Below, piece by piece: positions 8,291-20,905 of a stretch of 64,000 bases of DNA. This DNA comes from Bacteroidia bacterium (GTDB lineage Bacteria > Bacteroidota > Bacteroidia > CAIKAF01). The first letter of the stretch is position 1, and every line of letters begins with the position of its first letter. A program made the position numbers and the translations under genes. The stretch spans positions 62,001-126,000 of the forward strand of contig JAUHWY010000002.1 in assembly GCA_030427255.1 (NCBI GenBank). Direction: 5' to 3'. The notes under the pieces were generated by a model. It had not been told where the DNA came from. It saw only the letters and a list, made by a program, of their open reading frames with translations, and did not search any database.

Positions 8291-8680
8291 ATGGCAGCTG
8301 AAAAAGTAAAATACTCAGAAGAAGAATTAGAAGAGTTCAAAGAACTTATTAATGGAAAGCTGGAAAAAGCAAAAAAAGAGCTGGAACTGCTCATCGACGC
8401 TTTCTCCCATAAGGATGGAAATACCACCGACGACACTTCTCCTACCTTTAAGCTAATGGAGGATGGAGCAGAGGTGTCTTCCAAAGAGGAGATTGGGCAG
8501 CTTGCAGCACGTCAAAAGAAATTTATCCAGAATTTGGAGAATGCTCTTTTGCGCATTAAAAACGGAACCTACGGCATTTGTAGGGTAACCGGAAAATTAA
8601 TTCCTAAAGAAAGGCTTCGGGCAGTTCCTCACGCCACCTTAAGCATGGAAGCAAAAACTTCCCAAAACCGCACGGATTGA
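8291..8680 (+). CDS. TraR/DksA family regulator with a degenerate zinc finger
   Basis: 129 aa. The N-terminal half is a charged helical hairpin (residues ~5-95, rich in E and K), like the coiled coil that DksA-type proteins insert into the RNA polymerase secondary channel. The C-terminal part reads NGTYGICRVTGKLIPKERLRAVPHA, the DksA C-terminal domain, but only one of the four zinc-binding cysteines remains. Loss of the cysteines is, as I recall, common in Bacteroidota members of the family. It lies in a tight cluster ileS-dksA-lspA; its stop overlaps the lspA start. A role in stringent-type transcription control is inferred from family only. Confidence 0.85.
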   Translation: MAAEKVKYSEEELEEFKELINGKLEKAKKELELLIDAFSHKDGNTTDDTSPTFKLMEDGAEVSSKEEIGQLAARQKKFIQNLENALLRIKNGTYGICRVTGKLIPKERLRAVPHATLSMEAKTSQNRTD

Positions 8681-9264
8681 AAGCACTCCGCCTTCCTTTG
8701 CTGTTGATTTTTGGAATATTGGTCTTTGACCAATGGACTAAGATTTACATCAAAACCCATTTTGAGTTACAGGAAAGCGCGCGCTTAATACCCGGACTCA
8801 TAGAATTATTCTTTATTGAGAATAATGGAATGGCTTGGGGACTTGAGCTAGGGGGCACCACAGGAAAATTGTTTCTAAGTATTTTTAGAATCATTGCGGT
8901 AAGCCTCATCGGTTACTTGTTGTTTGATCTGGTGCGCAAAAAAAAGAACCGCTGGCTGGTCATTAGCTTATCCCTCATTTTTGCAGGAGCTTTAGGGAAT
9001 ATCCTTGATTCTATGTTTTATGGGATCATATTTAGCGAAAGCAATACCTTCCAATTAGCACAAGCCTTTCCTCCCGAAGGTGGCTATGCTCCCTTTCTTC
9101 AAGGAAAAGTAGTGGACATGTTGCACTTTACGGTTCACTGGCCGGATTGGGTTCCCTATCTTGGTGGAGACCCCATCTTTAGACCTATATTTAATTTTGC
9201 AGATACGGCCATAACCATTGGGGTTTCTATTTTGGTCATATTATCTATCCGCAAAAAGATTTAA
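8677..9264 (+). CDS. lspA: Lipoprotein signal peptidase (signal peptidase II)
   Basis: 195 aa inner-membrane aspartyl protease that removes signal peptides from diacylated prolipoproteins; several predicted lipoproteins in this window would be substrates. Four hydrophobic segments are visible (about residues 4-18, 65-85, 92-112 and 168-190). The two catalytic Asp motifs are GNILDSMFYG near residue 110 and FNFADTAI near residue 170, and the NNGMAWG motif is at ~48. Translation appears to begin at a TTG overlapping the stop of the DksA-like gene, indicating coupling. It is somewhat longer than the E. coli enzyme owing to an insertion between the two Asp motifs, as in other Bacteroidota. Confidence 0.94.
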   Translation: MKALRLPLLLIFGILVFDQWTKIYIKTHFELQESARLIPGLIELFFIENNGMAWGLELGGTTGKLFLSIFRIIAVSLIGYLLFDLVRKKKNRWLVISLSLIFAGALGNILDSMFYGIIFSESNTFQLAQAFPPEGGYAPFLQGKVVDMLHFTVHWPDWVPYLGGDPIFRPIFNFADTAITIGVSILVILSIRKKI

Positions 9265-9371
9265 GGGCTTCTATTGCTTTAGAGGGAACTTCTATCTGAA
9301 ACAATGTAAAGGCAAGAGCATCTTTTATTATGTTGTAAAGATTCGCTAATTTGCCTTGATACATGTTACCT

Positions 9372-10607
9372 ATGAAAACCTTTGTTTACCTAACTTTCTG
9401 TGCTTTATTTAGCATGGTATTAAACGCCCAACAAGTGGGTATCAATACCTCCAATCCGGATCCATCCGCCGTTTTAGACGTCTTTTCTTCCGACAAAGGC
9501 TTGCTTTTTCCACGCTTAACTACTGCGCAACGGAACAACATCAACAACCCTGCACATGGTCTTACCATTTACAATACCACCAGCCAGTGTATGGAAACCT
9601 ACTTTCCTACCGGATGGGCCCAAATGGCTTGTGCATGTCAAAGCTTTCCCTCGGCAAGCTATACCACCAGCCCTGCCAACCCTTCCACTACTCAGCCTGT
9701 AGTTTTCTCCCCGGCAACCACAGGCGCAAGTTATGCCTGGCAGTTTCAGTCTGGCACGCCTGCCAGTTCCAATGCCCAAAACCCATCGGTTACTTGGGCA
9801 AATACAGGTACGTTTCAAGTGATTTTAACCATAACCGATGCCAACGGATGCAGTACCATAGATACCACCGGCATAACGGTAAATCAGTGTGCGCCTAGTG
9901 GTTCTCAAACTTTTAATTATACAGGGTCTGCCCAAAGTTGGACGGTGCCTGCCTGCGTAACCAGCATACAAGTGGATGCATACGGTGCCCAAGGTGGTTC
10001 GGGAACTTCCGGCGGTGCCGGCGGCCTCGGTGGCAGAGTACAAGCCACCCTAACGGTTACTCCCGGTGAGGTGTTGCAAATAAATATTGGAGGTGCCGGT
10101 GCCAGTCCCGCAGCAGGATGGAATGGCGGAGGCGCCGGTGTTGGTACAGGCGCCGGTGGTGGCGGAGCAACAGACATTCGCAGAAATGGCACAACGCTTA
10201 GCGACCGCATTTTGGTTGCCGGTGGTGGAGGCGGTGGTGCTCAGGGCGCCGGAGGTGCCGGTGGTGGTTTAACGGGTGGTCAAGGCTCTACTAACGGAAA
10301 TGGCGTTTGGGCTCAAGGAGGTACCCAAAGCTCCGGTGGTGCCGGAGGAATGTACAATAATGGAGGCTGCTCCCCCGGTCAAGCTTTTGCCCCCTCCGGA
10401 GTATTTGGTATTGGAGGAAATGGATTGTCGAATTCGGCATGTTGCTGCTACGGAACCGGTGGCGGTGGCGGATGGTATGGCGGCGGGGGGATGCAAATTA
10501 ACGGGGCCGGAGGAGGTTCTAGTTATGTTACAAGCAGCGGCTCTAGCAATATCTCCCACAGCCAAGGCGTTCGATCCGGAAACGGAACCCTAAGCATCAG
10601 CTGGTAA
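9372..10607 (+). CDS. Secreted PKD / glycine-rich surface protein
   Basis: 411 aa with signal peptide MKTFVYLTFCALFSMVLNAQ. Residues ~20-75 (VGINTSNPDPSAVLDV, GLLFPRLTTAQR) are the stalk-like N-terminal module common in Bacteroidota surface proteins and tail-fibre-like proteins. Residues ~90-170 look like a PKD domain (YAWQFQSGTPASS, VILTITDANGCSTIDT). From ~175 onward there is a glycine-rich domain (GGAGGLGG, AGGGGGGA, YGTGGGGGWYGGGG) like the glycine-rich region of ALK/LTK-type proteins, ending SGNGTLSISW. No type IX sorting tail is evident. An in-frame ATG nine bases upstream is possible. Function is unknown; adhesion or matrix contact is a guess. Confidence 0.75.
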   Translation: MKTFVYLTFCALFSMVLNAQQVGINTSNPDPSAVLDVFSSDKGLLFPRLTTAQRNNINNPAHGLTIYNTTSQCMETYFPTGWAQMACACQSFPSASYTTSPANPSTTQPVVFSPATTGASYAWQFQSGTPASSNAQNPSVTWANTGTFQVILTITDANGCSTIDTTGITVNQCAPSGSQTFNYTGSAQSWTVPACVTSIQVDAYGAQGGSGTSGGAGGLGGRVQATLTVTPGEVLQINIGGAGASPAAGWNGGGAGVGTGAGGGGATDIRRNGTTLSDRILVAGGGGGGAQGAGGAGGGLTGGQGSTNGNGVWAQGGTQSSGGAGGMYNNGGCSPGQAFAPSGVFGIGGNGLSNSACCCYGTGGGGGWYGGGGMQINGAGGGSSYVTSSGSSNISHSQGVRSGNGTLSISW

Positions 10608-11162: not shown

Positions 11163-13067
11163 TTGGACATTCCCTTAGCCAACGGTAACGACGACCCTTT
11201 TAGTTTGATTTGGTGGTTTATTCTGCCGGTCTTATTAATGCTTTCTGCCCTAATTTCCGGCTCCGAAGTAGCCTTCTTTAGCCTTTCTGCCAAAGGTTTG
11301 GATGAACTGGACCAAGAAAAACCGGGATTGGCCCTAAGGGTTAGGAAACTTTTGGACCATCCCCGTAGATTGTTGGCTACCATTCTTATTGCCAACAATT
11401 TTATAAATATTGCCATTGTCATTATTTCCGGCTTGCTTACAGACTCTTTAAGCTTGAGCAGCCTTTGGCCTTACTGGGCTGTGTTTCTTTTTCAGGTAGT
11501 AGCCGTTACCTTTTTGATTTTACTGTTTGGCGAAATCCTTCCCAAGGTTTTTGCCACCCAACGCCCTCTGGTACTCATTCGAGCAATGACAGGGCCTTTA
11601 ATTGTAACGGAACGGTTAACCCGATGGCTAAGCACCATATTGCTTGCCTCAGGTCGTATTTTTGACCGTAAATTGCAGCGGAGCCCGGCTGCCCTTAGTC
11701 CCGACGAATTATCGGCAGTGATTGATATGACCCACGACGACTCGGTGTCAGAAGAAGAAAGAAAAATTTGGAAGGGCATTGTAGAGTTTGGCCAAATTTC
11801 TGTTAGCGAAACCATGAAACCTCGGATTGACGTTGTGGCCTTAGATTCCGGCTTAGATTTTAAGCAGGTGTTGGAAACCATTCTTCAATCCGGTTATTCC
11901 CGGATTCCGGTGTATACCGACTCTTTTGACCAAATCAAAGGAGTATTGTATATTAAAGACTTGCTGCCTCACTTAGACCAGCCGGCATCTTTTCCCTGGG
12001 CTAATTTGGTGAGAAAGCCCTTTTTTGTCCCGGAAAATAAACCTATCGATGACCTGCTTAAGGAGTTTCAAGAGAAGAAAATGCACATGGCCATTGTGGT
12101 AGATGAATATGGTGGCAGCTCCGGAATCATTACCCTTGAAGATGTTATTGAAGAAATTGTAGGAGAAATCAATGACGAATTCGACGACGAAGAGGTGGTC
12201 TATTCTCGCCTTGACAACCTTAACTACGTTTTTGAAGGAAAAACGACACTAGTTCAACTCTGTAGAATTTTAGATATTCCTTTTGATCATTTGGGGGAAG
12301 CAGGGCAAGAGGCCGACACCTTGGCCGGACTCCTGCTTAATTTGCATGGCAAAATGCCCCTAAGAGGGGAGCAAATGGAAATGTTGGGTATAAAGTTCAC
12401 GGTAGAATCGGCAGATACACGACGAATTAAACGGGTTAAAGTGCAGCTGAGCGCTCCCGATCGATTAAAGGAGCACCGTTTTCCTATCCCTTTGCTTTTG
12501 CTTTTATTGGCTTTCTTGCCTTTTTCTTGTGGGGAAACGCCTTCGGTACCTAAACCCAGAGGTTACCCTTCCATAACCCTGCCCGTGCACGATACGGTGC
12601 CCCTTGCCCGCGATTGTCCTTTTGTTTTTTATTATTTTGAAGGAGCTAAAGTTCGCCCTTATGTGGGCAACAGCGAAATGGCCAATCCCTGTTGGTTCAA
12701 TTTGGATTATCCTAGCTTTAATGCAGCACTTTATTTAACATATTTGCCTGTAACCTCACGTGAGGCTTTGGGTGAGTTGATCGACGATGCCCACCAACAA
12801 GTGTTTAGCGGCCACTCTATGATGGCCTCAGCCATAGCGCAGCAAACCATCCTAAGGCCCAATGAGGAGGTGTATGGCACTTTGTTTGCACTGGAAGGAA
12901 AGGCCGCAACTCCTTTTCAATTTTACCTAACCGATTCTAGCAAGCACTTTTTAAGAGGAAGCTTGTACTTTAATTTCACCGCCAATTACGATAGCTTGGC
13001 TCCTGTGGTATCTTTTTTGCATAGAGATATCCAAACAATGGTTAATTCGCTTCGTTGGGAGCCTTGA
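11163..13067 (+). CDS. GldE-GldD fusion reading frame (CNNM/CBS membrane protein fused to gliding lipoprotein)
   Basis: One 634-aa frame. Residues ~1-430 are GldE-like: a DUF21/CNNM membrane domain (ALISGSEVAFFSLSAKGLDEL, four hydrophobic segments), two CBS domains (MKPRIDVVALD, YSRIPVYTD, KKMHMAIVVDEYGGSSGIITLEDVIEEIVGEI) and a CorC/HlyC domain to ~430. Residues ~440-634 are GldD-like: a hydrophobic segment ending in lipobox LPFSC at Cys456, then VPKPRGYPSITLP, CPFVFYYFEGA and CWFNLDYPSFNAALYLTY. In relatives these are separate adjacent genes needed for gliding and type IX secretion. No stop or ATG separates them here; an in-frame GTG at 12441 (residue 427) could start a separate GldD. The start is a TTG; no ATG lies upstream of the first membrane segment. 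A true fusion, internal initiation and a sequence error are all possible. Confidence 0.85.
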   Translation: MDIPLANGNDDPFSLIWWFILPVLLMLSALISGSEVAFFSLSAKGLDELDQEKPGLALRVRKLLDHPRRLLATILIANNFINIAIVIISGLLTDSLSLSSLWPYWAVFLFQVVAVTFLILLFGEILPKVFATQRPLVLIRAMTGPLIVTERLTRWLSTILLASGRIFDRKLQRSPAALSPDELSAVIDMTHDDSVSEEERKIWKGIVEFGQISVSETMKPRIDVVALDSGLDFKQVLETILQSGYSRIPVYTDSFDQIKGVLYIKDLLPHLDQPASFPWANLVRKPFFVPENKPIDDLLKEFQEKKMHMAIVVDEYGGSSGIITLEDVIEEIVGEINDEFDDEEVVYSRLDNLNYVFEGKTTLVQLCRILDIPFDHLGEAGQEADTLAGLLLNLHGKMPLRGEQMEMLGIKFTVESADTRRIKRVKVQLSAPDRLKEHRFPIPLLLLLLAFLPFSCGETPSVPKPRGYPSITLPVHDTVPLARDCPFVFYYFEGAKVRPYVGNSEMANPCWFNLDYPSFNAALYLTYLPVTSREALGELIDDAHQQVFSGHSMMASAIAQQTILRPNEEVYGTLFALEGKAATPFQFYLTDSSKHFLRGSLYFNFTANYDSLAPVVSFLHRDIQTMVNSLRWEP

Positions 13068-19588: not shown

Positions 19589-19936
19589 CTATTTGCCCTC
19601 CCTTTGCCTTAATTTTTTCCAGCTATAAAATCCTTTTCTAAACCAATGCAGCAGCAACAGACCCAACACTAGGGAAATCAGCCAACCCAAAGGATGGTAA
19701 TCCAAGCTTTCTTGCCATTCACCATGCATTAAATGCTTTATGCTTCTGGTTAGTCCGCAGCCCCAGCATTCCACCTGAAACAAACGGACCGAAATACACA
19801 CCGGTTCGCCCTCGTCAAAATAGCCGGCAGGAAGACTCCATATATATAAGACAATGCCAAAGGCAACAAAAGGCCTTAAAACTATGAAAAGAGCTTTGAG
19901 ACTTTGTTTGTCAAAGCTTTTCTTCATAGTCCTCAT
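19589..19936 (-). CDS. DUF2752 membrane protein
   Basis: 115 aa (or 112 aa from the ATG at 19927). Two hydrophobic segments flank the signature VECWGCGLTRSIKHLMHGEW, equivalent to the CPGCGxTRA motif of DUF2752 small membrane proteins, followed by DYHPLGWL. The Cys pair may bind metal or form a disulfide; the function of the family is unknown. The gene overlaps the 3' end of the TM2-domain lipoprotein gene, so the two are probably co-transcribed. Confidence 0.8.
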   Translation of the reverse strand: MRTMKKSFDKQSLKALFIVLRPFVAFGIVLYIWSLPAGYFDEGEPVCISVRLFQVECWGCGLTRSIKHLMHGEWQESLDYHPLGWLISLVLGLLLLHWFRKGFYSWKKLRQREGK

Positions 19937-20714
19937 AATTGGCAGGCTTTAAATCGCCAGTGAGGATGCGGATAAAATCTACTAAGGCCCAAATACCACA
20001 ACAGCCCACAGTAAACAATTGAATGATGCCAATAACGGTATAGCCTAAGTAAAACCGATGCACGCCCAATGCCCCAAAGAAAAAGCAAAGCAATGCTGCC
20101 ACCAACTGGCTGAGTCCCACGTATGGCTCTTGCTCTTGATTTTCTGAGCCGGTCACCGTATCGGAGTCCTCCGAACTTTCGCTTCTTGCCTTTTCAATGA
20201 TGGTTGGTTCTTCCTCTTCTTTCTCCGGTAGTTCAGGTTCTATCAAATCGTTAAACAACATGCTGGTGCCTTTAGCGTAGACAATGCGGTGCACCCGCTC
20301 CAGTGGCTCCACAATAATGTCGCCGGATTCTTTTTGACCACAATTTTTGTAGGCCACTCCAGATTCGCGTACCTCTACCACATGCACTTCCTTTTCCGAA
20401 CCATCAATAAAAACAATTCGGTCGCAATCTTCCTTTAAGAAAACCCGAATTGGAGAAATGGGTTCCGCTGTGGCTGCCTCCAAAGCGACTTCCCTCTTTT
20501 CGGTTTCTGCTGCACCCATGGCTGCCCAGACCTGACCAAGCTCCGGTTTTGCAGGTGTTGCCTTTGTGGGTGTTTTTATGTTTTTAGCCATGCGCCACGC
20601 ATAGCCGGGATTGTATTTCCTTTTCTGTGCAAAACGGCCATTGTTCACTTGGTCGGTGGTTTCACAGGAAAGGAGAGCGATTAAAAAACAGAAGATTAAG
20701 GGTAAAAGGCGCAT
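19911..20714 (-). CDS. TM2-domain lipoprotein
   Basis: 267 aa. MRLLPLIFCFLIALLSC is a lipoprotein signal with lipobox Cys17. Residues ~95-165 form a small beta domain (DRIVFIDGSEKEVHVVEV), then an acidic Glu/Ser-rich linker (~165-195). The C-terminal ~60 residues are a TM2 domain: FFFGALGVHRFYLGYTVIGI, TVGCCGIWALVDFIRI. Combining a lipobox with a C-terminal membrane domain is seen in Bacteroidota proteins of unknown function. The start at 20714 was chosen for the signal peptide; its -7 box is at 20733. Confidence 0.8.
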   Translation of the reverse strand: MRLLPLIFCFLIALLSCETTDQVNNGRFAQKRKYNPGYAWRMAKNIKTPTKATPAKPELGQVWAAMGAAETEKREVALEAATAEPISPIRVFLKEDCDRIVFIDGSEKEVHVVEVRESGVAYKNCGQKESGDIIVEPLERVHRIVYAKGTSMLFNDLIEPELPEKEEEEPTIIEKARSESSEDSDTVTGSENQEQEPYVGLSQLVAALLCFFFGALGVHRFYLGYTVIGIIQLFTVGCCGIWALVDFIRILTGDLKPANYEDYEEKL

Positions 20715-20732
20715 GGATAAGGTTTTTCGAGG

Positions 20733-20740
20733 CAAATATA
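20733..20740 (-). promoter_or_regulatory. -7 box for the TM2-domain lipoprotein (TATATTTG)
   Basis: On the minus strand TATATTTG matches TAnnTTTG, 18 bases before the ATG at 20714. The -33 position would fall inside or at the edge of repeat R3. Confidence 0.55.
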
Positions 20741-20756
20741 TTGATTTTATGGTTTT

Positions 20757-20905
20757 GGGCGGCCGGGCGGGCCCTTGTTGCAAGTCCTCACAGGCAAGTT
20801 TCTGTGGCTAAGCCGTGCGTGGTCCCCCGAAGCCTCGGGGGCCTCCGCCGGCCAAGCCACAGTGCCTTGCCTGCTCCGGGCTTTTCACAGCGGTCCCTGC
20901 CGCAG
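20757..20905 (-). repeat. Structured intergenic repeat R3 (minus orientation)
   Basis: Read on the minus strand it begins CTGCGGCAGGGACCG and ends AAGGGCCCGCCCGGCCGCCC. The terminal helix is GCGGC/GCCGC, the second helix AAG/CTT as in R9, and the central stem pairs CTGTGGCTTGGCC with GGCTTAGCCACAG and GCAGGCAAG with CTTGCCTGT. An apical hairpin GGCCCCCGAGG/CTTCGGGGG is conserved in position with R8 and R9. It lies in the divergent promoter region between the TM2 lipoprotein and the DEAD-box helicase. The rest of this 413-base gap holds the two promoters and the helicase leader. Confidence 0.83.

Follow-up and report, generated by a model that had tools for sequence, protein, structure and literature searches.

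A continuous gldE-gldD reading frame with an internal lipobox recurs in Bacteroidia and may encode a lipoprotein-releasing precursor

In this study, we found that gldE and gldD are joined as one gene in a Bacteroidia bacterium (assembly GCA_030427255.1, contig JAUHWY010000002.1), within the 64,000-nucleotide stretch of DNA that was analysed, here called the window. Positions 11163-13067 hold 634 codons that are open from end to end with no stop between GldE and GldD, and both families are complete and above their curated cut-offs: in profile searches, the GldE part scored 509 bits to TIGR03520 (residues 23-429; cut-off 376 bits) and the GldD part 186 bits to TIGR03512 (residues 448-633; cut-off 120 bits). 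The continuous frame claimed in a preliminary description of this DNA was thus confirmed as two complete proteins in one frame, in which the Pfam domains CNNM, CBS, CorC_HlyC and GldD_lipo were recognized. We consider it rather probable that the frame is translated into a single GldE-GldD precursor, which Lgt and LspA would split into GldE and the lipoprotein GldD, a reading in which we infer one-piece translation, topology, lipidation and cleavage. The features concerned are the following.

8677-9264, + strand: lspA, encoding lipoprotein signal peptidase, which is proposed to cut the fusion (NF011369, 228 bits, cut-off 200)
11163-13067, + strand: fused gldE-gldD ORF, TTG start, 634 aa, stop TGA at 13065-13067
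11163-12449, + strand: GldE part, residues 1-429, with CNNM/DUF21 membrane domain, CBS pair and CorC_HlyC domain
12441-12443, + strand: in-frame GTG, codon 427, encoding Val in the last CorC strand; no other candidate internal start precedes the signal core
12450-12479, + strand: variable linker SAPDRLKEHR, residues 430-439, containing the charged n-region
12480-12530, + strand: internal hydrophobic signal segment FPIPLLLLLLAFLPFS and lipobox Cys456, with hydrophobicity kept against neutral change
12528-13064, + strand: mature GldD part, residues 456-634, TIGR03512 and Pfam GldD_lipo, with a confident AlphaFold2 model

The fused frame holds the only GldD copy of the host genome and must therefore supply this protein, while one further GldE relative was found at a lower score (183 bits). 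GldJ and GldL are also encoded in the genome, so a gliding or T9SS apparatus is plausible. The AlphaFold2 model of the GldE part was confident and matched CorB/CorC structures, and in the fused chain confident GldE and GldD domains flanked a low-confidence junction (pLDDT 48-60, below 50 over residues 434-441; pTM 0.46). The two domains had no defined mutual placement, and contact between them is neither proven nor excluded by the model. The model of mature GldD (pLDDT 91, pTM 0.85) found its best solved-structure matches in PsbP and, at a lower level, Mog1 (TM about 0.5, best E 3.4e-4, about 8-16% identity), and a sequence search of GldD against solved structures gave no match.

The preliminary description had also placed the lipobox cysteine inside the ORF, with no ATG at the junction and an in-frame GTG at 12441. 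Each of these points held on inspection: Cys456 is encoded by TGT at 12528-12530, neither ATG nor stop is present at the junction, and the GTG is codon 427, a Val in RVKVQL. The signal segment starts at residue 440 of the open frame and would be N-terminal only if translation began at GTG 12441; in the product of the full open frame, the signal peptide is not N-terminal. All 20 fused sequences keep the hydrophobic segment and the lipobox Cys inside the protein, with S, G or A at position -1 in every case. At position -3, 18 of them have L or F, L028 has I and the window has P. In at least three separate genes (L102, L109 and L133), automatic assignment picked the wrong Cys, which leaves the fused set unaffected, and the motif that served to extract junctions missed that of locus L139. 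A PS51257-like pattern was satisfied by 18 of the 19 non-identical fused sequences, and the window was the sole failure, at -3. Its lipobox, LPFSC, has Ser at -1, Phe at -2 and Pro at -3, and both of the latter lie outside the standard [LV][ASTVI][GAS]C (PMC8048626). Given the unusual Pro, cutting of the window's fusion may be slow, and lipidation or cutting of LPFSC may be poor. A scan of the window for other internal lipoboxes gave, besides Cys456, one match, in an ORF on the - strand (19914-20807) with no long soluble domain after it.

The junction is 27-28 codons long and changes fast. In three independent genus pairs, its dN/dS was 0.19/0.18 (the closest pair), 0.39/1.00 and 0.75/1.30, compared with about 0.03-0.10 for the GldE and GldD parts. 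When neutral change was simulated in a simple way, the frame stayed open with P = 0.54, 0.42 and 0.29 for the three pairs, which is weak evidence alone. The hydrophobicity of the last 16 junction residues was nevertheless kept beyond neutral expectation in the two deepest pairs (P = 0.0024 and 0.0002). Fast sequence change together with kept hydrophobicity points to constraint on the physical character of a signal peptide and not to a sequence-specific linker.

The fused state is not confined to the window. All six genus members (G000-G005, the window and the five others) have the frame open over 632-654 codons, and their proteins are 54-94% identical to that of the window; locus L040, also fused, shows 94% identity, and L040 and G004/L028 are probably the same genome. 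One further genus of the same family is fused (G010), and the other genera with a match have separate genes. Wider surveys found the fused frame in four more families, f28 (at least six genomes), f10 (at least three), f61 (at least six) and f4 (at least two), again alongside relatives with separate genes, giving at least 24 fused genomes in five families of Bacteroidia. On a tree of GldE plus GldD from 90 distinct loci (20 fused and 70 separate), at least seven changes between the fused and the separate state are needed, and the well supported branches require the same seven. This rules out the fusion as an oddity of one clade; the joining evidently arose at several separate places in the class, although some of the seven changes could be fissions, since the tree allows either direction for each. 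Therefore, the statement that relatives have adjacent separate genes stands for many relatives but has to be revised for the close ones, which are fused with no stop between the two parts, as well as for distant families where fusion recurs, and the objections that the preliminary description had foreseen from a survey of the junction fall away. Brumimicrobium and Roseivirga, which gave full-length matches in the first search, proved on inspection to have separate genes. Two of the fused genomes, G018 and G191 of one genus (L021 and L124), have identical GldE and GldD sequences, perhaps through recent transfer or bin mixing.

Where the genes are separate (70 loci), gldD in most cases overlaps gldE or directly adjoins it, its common ATG positions being -4 (ATGA), -8, -14 and -17 relative to the base after the gldE stop. 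Since overlapping gldE and gldD are read in different frames, they can be joined by an indel close to the overlap. In family f4, which gives the closest comparison of a fused with a separate locus, both flanks align around a junction that differs in length and sequence, and no single causative mutation can be read off. A sober alternative to selection for joint synthesis is neutral fusion, made easy by the adjacency and overlap of the two genes. At the other end of the gene, the gldE start was TTG followed by Asp/Glu in 60 of 89 distinct loci and ATG in 7 by the same simple rule; the weak start codon TTG is evidently conserved in gldE across Bacteroidia.

Considering the above results, we have proposed a plausible course for the processing of the precursor. 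The ribosome would make a single GldE-GldD chain, of which GldE would insert with its CBS and CorC domains in the cytoplasm. CBS domains are cytosolic in CorB proteins (PMC8242095), which places the end of GldE on the side where the signal peptide must insert, as far as topology can be predicted from this likeness. The old GldD signal peptide, now internal, would span the membrane as the last segment and deliver GldD to the periplasm. In lipoprotein processing, the lipobox Cys lies at the membrane-periplasm interface and is acted on by Lgt and then Lsp (PMC8048626); in the precursor, Lgt would lipidate Cys456 and LspA would cut before it, releasing GldD as a normal lipoprotein and leaving GldE with a short hydrophobic stretch at its C-terminus, the two being synthesized 1:1. 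The gene lspA sits 2 kb upstream of the fused ORF, and the Lgt-like match in the genome was weak and below the curated cut-off, in a 450-codon frame. Most likely, the fusion alters how GldE and GldD are made and not what they do.

The preliminary description had set a polypeptide cut by LspA against internal initiation at the GTG, which was the right pair of readings, and the evidence favours one-piece translation. Reinitiation or an internal start at GTG 12441 would give GldD alone and make the open frame incidental. The codon is in frame and is GTG in five of the six genus members, the GTG-started product scored 190 bits against 186 bits to TIGR03512, and the ancestral pairs overlap, so coupled starts would be normal. 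However, the codon specifies a Val that is conserved in GldE; the sixth member (L037, G005) has GTT, and in separate genes 10 of the 46 Val codons at this position are GTG without serving as a start. Conservation of GTG 12441 as a start codon was not decisive. Of the 19 distinct fused frames, 13 lack ATG, GTG and TTG in the linker proper. Six of them have GTG or ATG as the last Val/Met codon of the CorC strand, and the other seven (L009, L029, L037, L116, L117, L120 and L122) contain none of the three codons from the last CorC strand to the signal core, which makes one-piece translation the simplest reading. Starts inside the hydrophobic core of some fused frames are possible but would lack the charged n-region. 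Internal initiation is conceivable for individual members such as L118 and L123, which have an in-frame ATG in the linker, whereas at GTG 12441 of the window it appears less likely, and read-through would still yield the fusion too; we regard such separate translation as quite improbable. An assembly or sequencing error that removed a stop or shifted the frame would be a natural suspicion, as the genomes are mostly draft assemblies and several relatives are MAGs, but it is ruled out for practical purposes by the same open frame in the six genus members and four other families, and we give it almost no weight.

The chain might also be made in one piece and stay uncut, the former signal peptide serving as a transmembrane anchor that holds GldD at the inner membrane, tied to GldE. 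The window's lipobox, atypical at -3 and -2, would suit this, and a hydrophobic core of 16 residues could span the membrane. A pure anchor needs no Cys, yet the Cys is present throughout the fused set with a small residue before it, and neither a linker sequence nor a fixed arrangement of GldE and GldD is conserved or predicted, as the low pTM and pLDDT of the fused model indicate. We therefore hold the uncut chain to be unlikely and prefer the precursor cut by LspA. A broader speculation, which we put forward as doubtful, is that GldE and GldD are a functional pair repeatedly locked into a lipoprotein-releasing polyprotein made 1:1, and that species with a weak lipobox, as here, keep the CBS/CorC domain, which would sense Mg in the cytoplasm, joined part-time through a transmembrane link to the lipoprotein that would stabilise the T9SS in the periplasm.

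Recurrent fusion of two genes has long been taken as a sign that their products act together, and its occurrence here points to a testable GldE-GldD partnership. Lipoprotein signals are as a rule N-terminal, and the fusion would offer a natural way to see whether a lipobox deep in a polytopic protein is accepted by Lgt and LspA. To our knowledge, the closest precedent is FbcH of Bradyrhizobium, the cytochrome b/c1 precursor that is cut at an internal signal peptide by signal peptidase I. Both are a polytopic membrane protein followed by a protein exported via an internal signal peptide; FbcH exports a cytochrome with a signal peptidase I cut, whereas the fused ORF retains a lipoprotein signal of the LspA type. 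With its internal lipobox, the proposed GldE-GldD precursor would be a new variation on such internally cut precursors, and among the titles and abstracts searched, with subscription papers mostly outside reach, we found no gldE-gldD fusion or internal lipobox in a polytopic protein. The separate gldE and gldD of gliding/T9SS Bacteroidota, as described for Flavobacterium johnsoniae (Hunnicutt and McBride, 2001, cited in PMC5395568 and PMC9127263), belong to the same families in the same order and are usually adjacent or overlapping, but they remain two genes, unlike the single frame of the window with its internal lipobox. Gliding and the stability of GldJ and GldK require GldD (PMC9127263), and gldE overexpression partly suppresses a gldB mutant (PMC5395568). 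The GldE part shares domain order and fold with the CorB/CorC (CNNM) magnesium transporters, for example PDB 7m1t (PMC8242095), but, unlike the fused ORF, none of the solved proteins extends beyond CorC or carries a lipoprotein.

In the neighbourhood of the fusion, ORF 9363-10607 encodes a 414-aa protein that has Gly-rich stretches and a hydrophobic segment at its N-terminus; it had no match in NCBIfam and looks like a surface protein. The lspA gene (8677-9264) comes after a DksA/TraR-like gene, and ssb lies just upstream of gldE.
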